From Myceligenerans salitolerans (GTDB taxonomy: Bacteria > Actinomycetota > Actinomycetes > Actinomycetales > Cellulomonadaceae), in NCBI RefSeq assembly GCF_017349295.1, contig NZ_JAFMPK010000024.1, positions 1 to 64,000 of the forward strand: 64,000 bases of DNA, given 5' to 3'. How positions within the stretch are numbered: position 1 is the stretch's first letter; each line of letters begins with the position of its first letter. The notes below the pieces were generated by a model, which did not search any database, was not told the origin of the DNA, and saw nothing but the letters and a program-made list of their open reading frames with translations. A program made the translations under genes and the position numbers. Below, piece after piece: positions 53,653 through 58,058 of this stretch.

Positions 53653-54327
53653 ATGGAGACTGAGGGCGTGGAGAACAGGCACGAACAGATACTGGATGCG
53701 GACACGCTGGGCAGAAGTGAGGCAGTGCGGGAGTACTTCGGCACGCGGTACGAGAAGGTGAGTGCGTACGCCCGGATGTTGATGGAGCAAGGGGAACTGC
53801 GCGGACTGATCGGGCCACGCGAGGTCCCGCGCTTGTGGGAGCGTCACATCTTGAACTCGGCCGCGGTGGTTCCGTACCTCACGAATGCTCGTTCGGTCGC
53901 GGACGTCGGTTCGGGTGCCGGTCTGCCAGGCGTGATCGTCGCGGTCATGCGTCCGGATGCCGAGGTGTTCCTCGTGGAGCCGATGGAGCGACGCACTGCG
54001 TGGCTCCATGAGGTCGTGCAGGAGCTCGATCTATCCAATGCGGTGGTGAAGCGTGGGCGTGCCGAGGACTATGACGGGGCGTTCGAGGTCGATGCGGTGA
54101 CGTCGCGGGCGGTGGGGGCGCTGTCCAAGCTGGTTCGGGTCTCGATGCCGTTGGTGAGCGTAGGTGGCGAGCTCGTGGTGCTCAAGGGTCGCAATGTGCG
54201 GGAAGAGTTCGACGCGGCGCGCAAGGTGCTGCGGAAGTTCGGCGCGGGGGAGCCGGAGGTCCTGCCAGGTGAGACCGTGGAAGGCGTCGAGGCGACGACA
54301 GTGGTGCGGGCCGTGCGACGCCGGTAG
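53653..54327 (+). CDS. rsmG: 16S rRNA (guanine527-N7)-methyltransferase
   Basis: A 224-residue SAM enzyme modifying G527 of 16S rRNA. Loss of it gives low-level streptomycin resistance in several bacteria. Motif I is VADVGSGAGLPGVIVAV (about 84-100), preceded by RLWERHILNSA, with VVKRGRAED and AVTSRAVGALSKLV following. The ATG at 53653 lies 51 bases after the strong hairpin. An upstream GAGGATGAGTC supplies the ribosome site. Two parS sites follow before parA. Confidence 0.96.
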   Translation: METEGVENRHEQILDADTLGRSEAVREYFGTRYEKVSAYARMLMEQGELRGLIGPREVPRLWERHILNSAAVVPYLTNARSVADVGSGAGLPGVIVAVMRPDAEVFLVEPMERRTAWLHEVVQELDLSNAVVKRGRAEDYDGAFEVDAVTSRAVGALSKLVRVSMPLVSVGGELVVLKGRNVREEFDAARKVLRKFGAGEPEVLPGETVEGVEATTVVRAVRRR

Positions 54328-54333
54328 CGAACG

Positions 54334-54347
54334 GTTTCACGTGAAAC
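54334..54347. other. parS site
   Basis: A perfect GTTTCACGTGAAAC palindrome, the ParB-binding site, in the gap between rsmG and parA. Confidence 0.95.
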
Positions 54348-54372: not shown

Positions 54373-54386
54373 GTTCCACGTGAAAC
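54373..54386. other. parS-like site
   Basis: GTTCCACGTGAAAC, one mismatch from parS, lies 26 bases after the previous site. Confidence 0.85.
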
Positions 54387-54455
54387 GGGAGGCGCGTTAT
54401 CGGCCTTCCTCGGTGTCGGCGTTTCGGCGATGCCGACTGCGTCGCGCTGCTTAGC

Positions 54456-56726
54456 GTGAGCAGTGTGCTCTCGCTCTGGGGATGGCTGAAGAGACGGTTC
54501 GGTCGTGAACGGACTGAGCGCGCCTCCGAACAGGCAGGGGCGGAAGGGATCCGGGCCGACCGGCCGACGGCGGTCCGGGCACAGGAGCCGGGTAAGCCGG
54601 CCAATGGGGGCGGAGCCTCTGAGGTGCGCCAAGCAGCTCAGACCAAAACAGGGGGGAGTGACGACGCGGCGATGTCGGACCGAGTGACGTCAACGGAGAA
54701 CACTGAAGCACCCGAAGGTGCCGAACACATAGCGGGCACTCGGGACGTCGAGAGGTGGGTGGTGGCAGAGGCGCCGGCAGCCGAGTTCGCTCCGCAGGCG
54801 GCGTCATTTGTCGACTTCGAGGCCCCCCGGGGGACTGTCGGAGAGTTGACGACGGACCCATCGTCAGCTGGCGATCATCTATCCGGTGACGGTGACGGTG
54901 ACGGTGACGGTGACGGTGACGGTGACGGTGACGGTGACGGTGACGGTGACGGTGACGGTGACGGTGACGGTGACGCGGCCGGTGTTTCACGTGAAACGCT
55001 CGAGTCCCCGGCACGGATCGGCCATGTCCCTGGCCCGCCTCGGAGCCCTGAGCGGCGATCGCACACCATCGGCCGTGGCGGATCACCGGGGTACACCAGT
55101 GATTCCGAGGGTGGCGCGGTCGAGACCATCTCGGATGGCGTGACCAGCGGCGCTCGGTCCGCCGCCGAGCCCCCGCTCTCCGTCGTCGAGGACGGAGACG
55201 AGGACGAGCGCGAGCGGAGAGCAGGCGCCTCCAGCGGTGGCCCGCGAAGGTCATCCACACAGGCTCCTGCGGCACGGCGCGTCCTGGCCGTGCTGTCGGT
55301 GGGAGCCCGATCCACGACCCTGGAGTCGGCGAGCGACCAGGAGAGCCCCCTACCAACACCGCCGCAGGCTGCGAGTTCTGAGGCCGTGCCAGACACGACG
55401 GAGCGCTTGCTCGAGGCGGGACCTGGGGGCGCCACGAATGATCCGGCCGCCACGGTGGCCGAATCCAACCGGGCGAACATGGCTGCCGCACTTCAAGCGG
55501 CTGCCGGTGTGACCACAGTGCGGATCGGTCACGGTGGACCGGCGACTACCGTCAGCCTTGGGACCGGCGACACGTCGGCCGATGTTGTGGAAAGTTCAGC
55601 CGAGTCCGTCCACGACACCACATCTACGGATTACAGTGTCAGCGTGACCGATCCGATCTTTGTGCAAGGGCTCCAGGCCCCAGGCGTTTCACGTGAAACG
55701 CCCGGCGCGGGGTTGCCCTCGAATCCAGAGTCCATGGACGGCGGGTACGACGGCGACGATGAGCGCCGCGAGGCTTTGATCGCGTCGGTTCCCGCCGTCG
55801 ACGAGTCCACTCCACTGGCGGCGCAGCTCGCCATGGATGCGCGTCGTCGCATCGAGCTGCAGGGACGTACGTTCCCTCGTCCGTCCCGGACGCGTGTCAT
55901 CACGGTGGCGAACCAGAAGGGAGGCGTCGGCAAGACGACCACCACGGTCAACTTGGCGGCCGGCCTTGCCCTGTCTGGACTGAACGTCCTTGTGATCGAC
56001 AACGATCCGCAGGGCAACGCGTCAACCGCTCTCGGTATCGAGCACCGCGCGGGTACCCCGTCGGTCTACGAGATCCTGGTCGAGGACGAACTGCTCGCGA
56101 ACACTGTCCAGCAGTGCCCGGATATCGACAACCTCTGGGGGGTTCCCGCGACCATCGACCTGTCCGGTTCCGAGATCGAACTCGTCTCCCTCGTTTCACG
56201 TGAAACCAGGCTGAGGAAGGCGATCGACCGGTTCCTCGCCGATCGGGAAGCGGCCGGCGAGCCGCAGATGGACTACGTGCTCGTCGACTGTCCGCCGAGC
56301 CTCGGACTCCTGACTGTCAACGCGTTCGTCGGAGGCCGGGAGGTGTTCATTCCGATCCAGTGCGAGTACTACGCACTTGAAGGTCTGAGCCAGCTGCTGA
56401 AGACGATCGACCTGATCCGGTCGCACCTCAACCCCGAGCTCCGAGTCTCCTCCATCTTGCTGACCATGTATGACGGTCGGACGAACCTGGCGCAACAGGT
56501 TGCCGGCGAGGTGAGGGCGCACTTCCCCTCGGAGACCTTCCGAACGACGATTCCGCGGTCGGTGCGAATTTCTGAAGCCCCGAGCTACGGGCAGACCGTC
56601 ATGACCTACGACGCGACGTCGACCGGCGCCCTCGCGTACCTTGAAGCGGCACGCGAACTGGCCGAGCGTGGCCAGGGTGCGTCCAGTCCGCGACGACCGG
56701 CCCCGATGCAGGAGACACGGTCCTGA
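54456..56726 (+). CDS. parA: Chromosome partitioning ATPase ParA with very long disordered N-terminal extension
   Basis: A deviant-Walker ATPase that segregates ParB-parS complexes. The conserved ParA domain begins at TRVITVANQKGGVGKTTTTVNLA (Walker A lysine about residue 493) and has VLVIDNDPQGNAS, YVLVDCPPSLG and the C-terminal FRTTIPRSVRISEAPS. The open frame runs back to a GTG at 54456, adding about 480 acidic, low-complexity residues. These include WGWLKRRFGRERTER, fifteen Gly-Asp pairs, and three VSRET segments encoded by parS sites. Third-position GC is lower in this part. GTG 54456 has no clear ribosome site. ATG 55734 would give a normal 330-residue ParA, so the true start is unsettled. 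Confidence 0.85.
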   Translation: MSSVLSLWGWLKRRFGRERTERASEQAGAEGIRADRPTAVRAQEPGKPANGGGASEVRQAAQTKTGGSDDAAMSDRVTSTENTEAPEGAEHIAGTRDVERWVVAEAPAAEFAPQAASFVDFEAPRGTVGELTTDPSSAGDHLSGDGDGDGDGDGDGDGDGDGDGDGDGDGDGDAAGVSRETLESPARIGHVPGPPRSPERRSHTIGRGGSPGYTSDSEGGAVETISDGVTSGARSAAEPPLSVVEDGDEDERERRAGASSGGPRRSSTQAPAARRVLAVLSVGARSTTLESASDQESPLPTPPQAASSEAVPDTTERLLEAGPGGATNDPAATVAESNRANMAAALQAAAGVTTVRIGHGGPATTVSLGTGDTSADVVESSAESVHDTTSTDYSVSVTDPIFVQGLQAPGVSRETPGAGLPSNPESMDGGYDGDDERREALIASVPAVDESTPLAAQLAMDARRRIELQGRTFPRPSRTRVITVANQKGGVGKTTTTVNLAAGLALSGLNVLVIDNDPQGNASTALGIEHRAGTPSVYEILVEDELLANTVQQCPDIDNLWGVPATIDLSGSEIELVSLVSRETRLRKAIDRFLADREAAGEPQMDYVLVDCPPSLGLLTVNAFVGGREVFIPIQCEYYALEGLSQLLKTIDLIRSHLNPELRVSSILLTMYDGRTNLAQQVAGEVRAHFPSETFRTTIPRSVRISEAPSYGQTVMTYDATSTGALAYLEAARELAERGQGASSPRRPAPMQETRS
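54885..54974. repeat. Hexanucleotide tandem repeat (GGTGAC) x15
   Basis: Fifteen exact copies of GGTGAC (90 bases) encode a Gly-Asp run in the ParA N-terminal frame. The perfect array suggests slippage and length variation between strains. Confidence 0.98.
54984..54997. other. parS site inside parA
   Basis: A perfect GTTTCACGTGAAAC ten bases after the hexamer array, read in frame as VSRET. Confidence 0.95.
55686..55699. other. parS site inside parA
   Basis: A perfect GTTTCACGTGAAAC in the N-terminal extension of parA, again read as VSRET. Confidence 0.95.
56193..56206. other. parS site inside parA
   Basis: A perfect GTTTCACGTGAAAC within the conserved ATPase part of parA, encoding VSRET in the segment SLVSRETRLRK. 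Confidence 0.95.
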
Positions 56727-56795: not shown

Positions 56796-58058
56796 ATGAG
56801 TGCGAAAAGGCGAGGGCTCGGCCGAGGTCTTGGTGCCCTGATTCCCACGGGTCCCGAGGAGGAGGACGCGCAGGGAGCTGCCGCCGCCGTTGCGACGATG
56901 CCGGTGGATGAGAACGCTTCGAACGACGGGGTGCCGCAGAGCGACGAGGCTGTTCTGGTCACCGAGTCGACGGAAGACTTGGGTTCCGCTCAGACTGCAC
57001 GGTCCGATTCCGGGTCGACGGCGCCGGCAGCGACGAGCCCAGCAGGTGAGGGCCGCTCCCGGGGAAACGGCCGTCACAGCTCGGGGAACTGGGACTCGGC
57101 GATCGCAAGCGGACGCCTTTCGGTGTCGGGCGAGGGAGCAGCGGCTCTCGACACCGCGTTCTTCGGCAACGGCGAGGCAGATGTTTCACGTGGAACCGAC
57201 ACGGATCTCGTTCCGGTGCCCGGCGCACGCTTCGCCGAACTCGATCCGGCCGCGATCCGGCCGAACGCACGCCAGCCCCGCACCGTCTTCGATGACGGCG
57301 AGCTCGACGAACTCGTGGACTCGATCAAGGAGATCGGCGTTCTCCAGCCGATCGTCGTACGACCGGACAAGCACGAGCCGGGTCAGTACGAACTCATCAT
57401 GGGGGAGCGTCGCTGGCGCGCCTCGCAAGCTGCCGGCCTTGATGCGATCCCTGCGATCGTCCGTGACACGGACGACGGAGACATGCTGCGGGACGCATTG
57501 CTCGAGAACCTGCACCGGGCTGCGCTGAATCCGCTTGAGGAGGCGGCGGCCTACCGACAGCTCCTGGACGACTTCGGTTGCACCCATGAGGAGCTCGCCA
57601 CGCGGATCGCCCGGAGCCGGCCGCAGATCTCCAACACCCTCCGCCTTCTCCGCCTTCCGCCGCTGGTGCAGCGACGAGTCGCGGCCGGGGTCCTCAGTGC
57701 AGGGCACGCACGAGCTCTGCTCGGGCTCACCGATGGTGCGGAGATCGAGAGACTGGCTCAGCGCATCGTCTCCGAAGGATTGTCGGTCCGTGCGACCGAG
57801 GAGCTCGTCATGATGTCCGACGGCGTGGACAAGGCGGCCAAGACACGGAAGGCGCCCCGTGCCGGAGCTCGGACGGAAGCGATGGACGAACTTGCGACCC
57901 GCCTCTCCGACCGCTTCGAGACACGCGTGAAGGTGGCCCTAGGAAAGAACAAGGGGCGGATGACGATCGAGTTCTCGGACGTGGGTGACTTGAACCGCAT
58001 CCTCGGAGTGCTGTCTCCCGGTGACCCGGGGCTCCTGAGGAGCACCGACACCGAGTAG
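56796..58058 (+). CDS. parB: Chromosome partitioning protein ParB
   Basis: A 420-residue CTPase clamp that loads at parS and spreads on DNA. It begins MSAKRRGLGRGLGALIP, the ParA-contacting N-terminus. A disordered Ala/Ser-rich stretch (about 20-135) precedes the ParB/Srx domain with ADLDELV-type region IRPNARQPRTVF, LQPIVVRP and GERRWRAS (CTP-binding). The HTH follows (YRQLLDDFGCTHEELATRIARSRPQISNTLRLL), and a C-terminal dimerisation domain ends with LNRILGVL. It starts 69 bases after parA and has GAGGAG seven bases before the ATG. Confidence 0.97.
   Translation: MSAKRRGLGRGLGALIPTGPEEEDAQGAAAAVATMPVDENASNDGVPQSDEAVLVTESTEDLGSAQTARSDSGSTAPAATSPAGEGRSRGNGRHSSGNWDSAIASGRLSVSGEGAAALDTAFFGNGEADVSRGTDTDLVPVPGARFAELDPAAIRPNARQPRTVFDDGELDELVDSIKEIGVLQPIVVRPDKHEPGQYELIMGERRWRASQAAGLDAIPAIVRDTDDGDMLRDALLENLHRAALNPLEEAAAYRQLLDDFGCTHEELATRIARSRPQISNTLRLLRLPPLVQRRVAAGVLSAGHARALLGLTDGAEIERLAQRIVSEGLSVRATEELVMMSDGVDKAAKTRKAPRAGARTEAMDELATRLSDRFETRVKVALGKNKGRMTIEFSDVGDLNRILGVLSPGDPGLLRSTDTE
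57183..57196. other. parS-like site inside parB
   Basis: GTTTCACGTGGAAC, one mismatch from parS, is read in frame as VSRGT just before the ParB core domain. Confidence 0.75.

Follow-up and report, generated by a model that had tools for sequence, protein, structure and literature searches.

The ParA protein encoded in the window (the whole 64,000-nucleotide stretch of Myceligenerans salitolerans DNA that was analysed) appears to carry a long translated arm in front of its ATPase, beginning at GTG 54465 and made up of a conserved tip and an acidic tether, a reading that as a whole we consider right with a probability of about 0.55. ParA is usually viewed as a compact ATPase of 260-330 residues. 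The product predicted here is most likely 753 residues long, with the tip followed by an acidic linker of ~420 residues and a normal ParA ATPase, and its parts are as follows:

54465 to 56726, plus strand: parA, 753 codons plus stop; likeliest start GTG 54465, a start codon common to clade A (see below)
54465 to 54506, plus strand: tip MLSLWGWLKRRFGR, a short aromatic/basic motif conserved within groups
54507 to 55778, plus strand: acidic low-complexity linker (net charge negative), predicted disordered (pLDDT <50)
55779 to 56726, plus strand: ParA ATPase with Walker A motif KGGVGKTT (Pfam AAA_31, 2.9e-52)

With E 1e-60 or better as the threshold, ParA turned up in 219 of the 221 genomes of the family, which is taken as Cellulomonadaceae in the wide sense because named near relatives include an uncultured Cellulomonadaceae bacterium and Actinotalea solisilvae. 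Of the 221, 100 (the window and 99 others, picked not at random, covering long and short frames and most genera) were compared. A long arm with an aromatic/basic tip occurs in 53 of these 100, in two separate groups of the ParA-core tree (100 rows): clade A, composed of g1 (this genus), g3 and g19 (19 rows, support 100/99), and g4+g5 (34 tipped rows and one untipped, support 93/93, not starred). Within the genus, the open frame measures 780, 721, 752 and 686 codons in the four genomes. The long open frame pointed out in the earlier note on this DNA is real, and the arm is not the oddity of one genome, as the design is common to many relatives.

Judged by its ATPase and its surroundings, the protein is a chromosomal, oriC-side ParA, and the arm is what is new. 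The ATPase part has the deviant Walker A motif and the AAA_31 fold of chromosomal ParA/Soj proteins of ParABS systems, and it matches ParA and Soj structures, the nearest solved chains being 8ray_B (9.9e-73) and 1wcv (5.3e-61). It matches the solved ParA/Soj chains (8ray_B, 1wcv, 6iub) over its length, but these chains have 255-276 residues and no such arm. The MinD model minD_bact reached 39.8 bits against a cut-off of 212.9, and the MipZ model matched in part, over residues 480-523 only, with 27.7 bits (cut-off 20.7), AAA_31 being far stronger at 177.6 bits. For the whole protein, 25 of 26 NCBIfam families were listed, every one in the ATPase part. The surroundings also agree with a chromosomal ParA/Soj, with parB adjoining, dnaA (identified by its translation) in the window and parS sites close by. 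The window is an actinobacterial oriC region containing dnaA, rnpA, yidC, jag, rsmG, parA, parB, trxA and trxB; family-model searches covered rsmG, parA and parB, and the other neighbours are named from their translations. The two genes that flank parA are:

53653 to 54327, plus strand: rsmG, neighbour upstream of parA (TIGR00138, 5.4e-39)
56796 to 58058, plus strand: parB (Pfam ParB_N 1.3e-34, HTH_ParB 1.1e-33), with a one-mismatch parS at 57183-57196

Between rsmG and parA, two g19 loci (L039 and L050) have an antisense frame on the minus strand whose product, by eye, begins like a signal peptide and resembles a secreted enzyme.

The ParA frame is open from GTG 54456 to 56726 (756 codons, or 780 from stop to stop), and the Walker A motif KGGVGKT lies ~485 codons from GTG 54456 with no stops in between, in agreement with the ~480 open codons that had been described upstream of it. 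The earlier note had the protein start at GTG 54456 and remarked that this codon has no clear ribosome site. The remark stands, and no ribosome site was seen ahead of GTG 54465 either. The start itself was dropped, because the equivalent codon reads GTT in g19 and g3 and because the congener G001 has its upstream GTG in another frame; GTG 54465 is thus the start common to clade A. Just ahead of it there is a candidate promoter element:

54452 to 54457, plus strand: TAGCGT, a putative -10 box (TANNNT), 7 nt ahead of GTG 54465; TANNNT is found here in 19/19 clade A relatives

The distance from the end of TAGCGT to the GTG that opens the tip is 6 or 7 nt in all 19 clade A loci. In Mycobacterium tuberculosis, the available portion of PMC3898074 gives TANNNT centred 7-12 bp before the start site as the main promoter element, found at 73% of primary start sites, and counts as leaderless 26% of the genes having a primary start site. 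The parA mRNA is probably leaderless from GTG 54465, as this putative signal suggests, and a leaderless mRNA would account for the absent ribosome site. The start signal of g4 and g5 is of another kind, with a GGAG/GAGG-type site at most 16 nt upstream in 28 of 34 loci. Among the 53 long-armed tipped loci, 51 start with GTG and 2 with ATG. In the g4/g5 loci (L056-L074, L196-L215), the start of parA overlaps the stop codon of rsmG by 11 nt in 31 of the 34 tipped loci, which suggests translational coupling of RsmG and ParA.

Comparison of the arm with its relatives indicates that it is almost certainly coding. A dinucleotide model predicts 8.2 in-frame stops in the 438 codons from GTG 54465 to the ParA domain, and not one of 2000 simulations was stop-free. 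In the 53 long tipped arms, which span 207-590 residues up to the ATPase part, the ParA frame is always stop-free, while the other five frames average 3.4-10.1 stops and are open only in 2 arms (frame 4) and 4 arms (frame 5). Likewise, the ParA frame is net acidic in 53/53, compared with 0/53 for frames 1, 2, 3 and 5 and 29/53 for frame 4. Among the 78 pairs within g19, the 20 closest keep 0.74-1.0 of their aligned arm bases in phase, and in all 20 the highest mismatch falls at codon position 3. As a control, the rsmG-parA stretch in g19 (11 pairs listed) was 0.11-0.87 in phase and drifted more than the arm, although this control is imperfect, being seemingly part-coding on the other strand, with three-base periodicity in some pairs. 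The check for stops and frameshifts in relatives, set beforehand, found all 53 long tipped arms open and close pairs mostly in phase, and of the two alternatives in the earlier note the comparison backs the first, in which the long, negative, disordered arm is translated as part of ParA. The dN/dS check also proposed there had a mixed outcome: a rough estimate over 12 pairs gave 0.35-0.54 for the linker versus 0.01-0.12 for the ATPase; dS approached or exceeded 1 in most linker pairs, and gaps in the same 12 pairs were mixed (79/148 multiples of three, 69/148 not). Since linker dS is high and the alignment was protein-guided, we prefer the phase and position-3 evidence over dN/dS. Taken at the level of design, the comparison supports an arm conserved in plan, with the tip conserved in residues within each group and the linker mainly in its acidity and low complexity.

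The acidic, low-complexity character of the upstream stretch, claimed from the single sequence, holds, as the arm has 77 D+E versus 37 K+R and few aromatics. The net charge of the linker is -43 to -31 across the four genomes of the genus and negative in 53/53 long tipped arms, with -0.196 to -0.037 charges per residue. GC at codon position 3 is indeed lower in the arm (0.69) than in the ATPase part (0.80), and the difference has the same direction in 53/53 long-armed loci. AlphaFold2 modelled the ATPase confidently and gave pLDDT <50 at residues 24-190, 192-328 and 338-428, with low-confidence helices at residues 2-26 and 327-346; the run used 20 sequences, and because the alignment has no depth in the arm, the low pLDDT fits disorder without being proof of it. 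The linker is probably disordered on this model. The second low-confidence helix, PAATVAESNRANMAAALQAA at 55443-55502 (model residues 327-346), has a similar sequence in congeners; about as far from the ATPase, g19 shows a helix-like stretch of different sequence, DAIKRASEALDAAVNAAPAVIG. Two further features lie inside the linker:

54884 to 54975, plus strand: perfect array of 15.3 CGGTGA hexamers, coding for (Gly-Asp)n
55620 to 55715, plus strand: conserved block DYSVxVTDPIxVQxLxAPGVSRET, which ends in a parS site ahead of the ATPase (alignment of 19 clade A arms)

The array could change length between strains without a frameshift, and no (Gly-Asp)n array was seen in the translations of three congeners. 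A Pfam search with the arm alone, up to E 1, gave TrAA12 as the one match (residues 142-175), which is a match to the Gly-Asp repeat with 27.1 bits against a cut-off of 30.9, and we treated it as chance.

The tip reads WGWLK in 4/4 genomes of the genus, [CFW]FF[RK]RKS[KR]R in 13/13 g19 and 2/2 g3 loci, and FGR[RK][KR] in 28/34 g4 and 6/6 g5 loci (34/40 together). Smaller sets have WPW (8 loci, with arms of 40-153 residues), GWF (2 loci) or FWRRR (one g6 genome), and a tip is absent from 36 of the 100 loci; these include 6 from g4, whose 28 other loci are tipped. At each of the first ten tip positions in g19 and g3, the commonest codon is found in 13-15 of 15 rows, synonymous sites included, so part of the conservation may be at the DNA or RNA level; in g4 and g5 the first four parA codons overlap the end of rsmG. 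For these reasons the clearest protein-level signal comes from the few synonymous changes in g19 and g3, from codons 5-8 in g4/g5 and from the changes within g1. The tip looked by eye like an amphipathic membrane helix; its hydrophobic moment was not above that of shuffled sequences, with shuffle fractions of 0.06-0.46 in this genus and 0.21-0.99 elsewhere. A MinD-type membrane helix, which in MinD itself is C-terminal, is therefore not supported for the N-terminal tip, the part examined here. A degenerate DNA pattern for WGWLKRR, searched in the genome with zero mismatches, had no match beyond the parA site.

We propose that the aromatic/basic tip would dock at the cell edge or pole, either on the anionic membrane or on a scaffold such as DivIVA, while the acidic flexible linker would give reach and stay clear of the nucleoid, and ParA would remain tethered as its dimer goes through its cycle on DNA and ParB. 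We hold this tether role as possible, at slightly less than even odds. It is favoured by a plan that is conserved while the linker sequence varies, by its occurrence in two separate groups and by the precedent of M. smegmatis ParA, likewise chromosomal and actinobacterial, whose N-terminal region binds the polar scaffold DivIVA (Wag31) and loses this binding when residue 3 is changed, as described in the available portion of PMC9298525. The same portion reports that the first 20 residues of M. smegmatis ParA grafted on another ParA were insufficient for DivIVA binding, which counts against the tether reading, as do the many relatives without an arm (36/100 without a tip). It also gives the actinobacterial ParA extension as 20-25 residues, whereas the one described here has ~440, includes an acidic linker and differs in its tip. 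This genome has two DivIVA-family matches over the cut-off. Such a long charged tether, tipped by a conserved motif and present in many members of the family, would provide a deletable handle on the question of how ParA is attached to pole or membrane in actinobacteria.

Mycobacterial FtsK, likewise a conserved segregation motor, has a long disordered N-terminal arm (nFtsK) that is specific to its lineage, and this arm binds anionic lipids, according to the part of PMC13277299 at hand. In that same part of PMC13277299, the nFtsK arm is positively charged and itself lipid-binding, whereas the linker described here is acidic and only its tip is basic. nFtsK is the nearest documented parallel in plan to the long-armed ParA. 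The A domain of FtsY is another acidic, length-variable N-terminal region, placed before a P-loop NTPase of the same broad class, and it helps membrane targeting; its likeness to the ParA arm is in architecture only, compared by description, and a literature search on the FtsY acidic domain found nothing. Among the papers listed by searches of the openly licensed literature, none, judged by title and abstract opening, deals with a long ParA arm or a Gly-Trp-Pro ParA motif, and those listed for parS sites located in parA were not helpful. The available portions of PMC10714820 and of the review PMC9178275 have nothing on such an arm, and the phrase "N-terminal extension" occurs 0 times in that of PMC9178275.

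The parS sites and repeats that had been noticed in the stretch are real, and most of the centromere lies within the coding sequence of a gene, its arm included. A genome parS scan placed these sites in and just before parA (strand not assigned):

54334 to 54347: exact parS, between rsmG and parA
54373 to 54386: parS with one mismatch
54984 to 54997: exact parS in the arm, read V-S-R-E-T
55686 to 55699: exact parS in the arm, read V-S-R-E-T
56193 to 56206: exact parS in the ATPase part, read V-S-R-E-T

The whole genome has four exact parS, three inside parA and one just before it; counting sites with at most one mismatch gives ten, of which the oriC contig carries eight. All 53 long arms contain parS with at most one mismatch, and 48 contain an exact one. 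The 93 in-arm sites (at most one mismatch) are all read V-S-R-E-T, although many are shared by descent, so that they do not represent 93 independent events. Of the three phases of parS, one holds a stop and so could not occur in an open frame; F-H-V-K, which would also be open, is used by none of the 93. In the gap before the gene (45 tipped loci), the phases are mixed (23, 20 and 17).

Because every one of the 53 arms has parS, the arm is also part of the centromere, and a role at the DNA level is a serious rival to the tether. On this account the arm would be a coding-compatible host of the centromere, its frame kept open around parS near oriC and parA, with the peptide as a by-product. The location of three of the four exact parS of the genome within parA agrees with such a role, as does the fast divergence of the linker peptide. 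Nevertheless, parS is only 14 bp long and has no need of a frame of 200-590 codons, several untipped ParA genes and the rsmG-parA gap carry parS as well, and the tip, the acidity of the ParA frame and the third-position bias are signals at the protein level. We consider this explanation quite unlikely.

A functional peptide could also act without any docking, with the linker working on ParA itself by mimicking or repelling DNA, weakening non-specific binding and tuning release from the nucleoid, and with the tip as an accessory or folded back on the linker. ParA dimers bind DNA non-specifically, as stated in the available portion of PMC9298525, and a net negative charge in 53/53 arms with a basic tip at the far end would suit this role, but the residues of the tip are more conserved than charge alone would require and the net charge per residue ranges widely (-0.196 to -0.037); we find it unlikely. 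Finally, the arm might not be translated at all, with a normal ParA made from ATG 55734, the fallback of the earlier note, or from another internal codon, and with non-coding DNA upstream. The absent ribosome site ahead of both GTG codons points that way, and so do internal codons conserved in the genus, namely GTG codons 110, 91, 85 and 4 codons before Walker A (4/4 genomes) and an ATG 28 codons before it (3/4), from which a shorter second ParA product may be made. However, ATG 55734 is ACG in 3/3 congeners, the tip codon has two kinds of start signal in two groups, and a non-coding stretch runs counter to the open frame, the acidity, the phase and position-3 signals in relatives and the frame of the parS sites, making this a very improbable explanation. 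The reading that we prefer is still the translated arm from GTG 54465, with its tip, acidic tether and ATPase.

Untipped lineages are found in both halves of the ParA-core tree (midpoint root, for drawing only). Two gains of the tipped long arm would be the simpler history; one old gain followed by many losses would be less simple. The earlier note missed the conservation of the tip, the signal of leaderless type ahead of 54465, the in-frame reading of parS as VSRET and the spread among relatives. We suggest, very tentatively and as a rather doubtful generalization, that "tethered ParA" could be a separate class of segregation ATPase that arose more than once in actinobacteria, in which a docking motif on an acidic disordered tether of 200-590 residues would hold ParA at the cell edge or pole, the DNA of the tether would be part of the centromere (parS as VSRET), and a further version with two Gly-Trp-Pro motifs would exist in other families.

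Outside the family but within the order, 12 of 20 loci (L176, L177, L179, L180, L181, L182, L184, L185, L187, L188, L190 and L193; the 20 were mostly picked for long frames, and some are close to each other) have two [LIVP]GWP motifs exactly 14 residues apart. The pair lies early in the ParA open frame, with a long low-complexity arm after it, and looks like a putative second docking motif. Looser pairs are seen in L192 and in three of the 31 named loci looked through (L096-L126, out of 80), namely L114 (Kineococcus vitellinus), L116 (Microtetraspora glauca) and L119, from one further actinobacterium.
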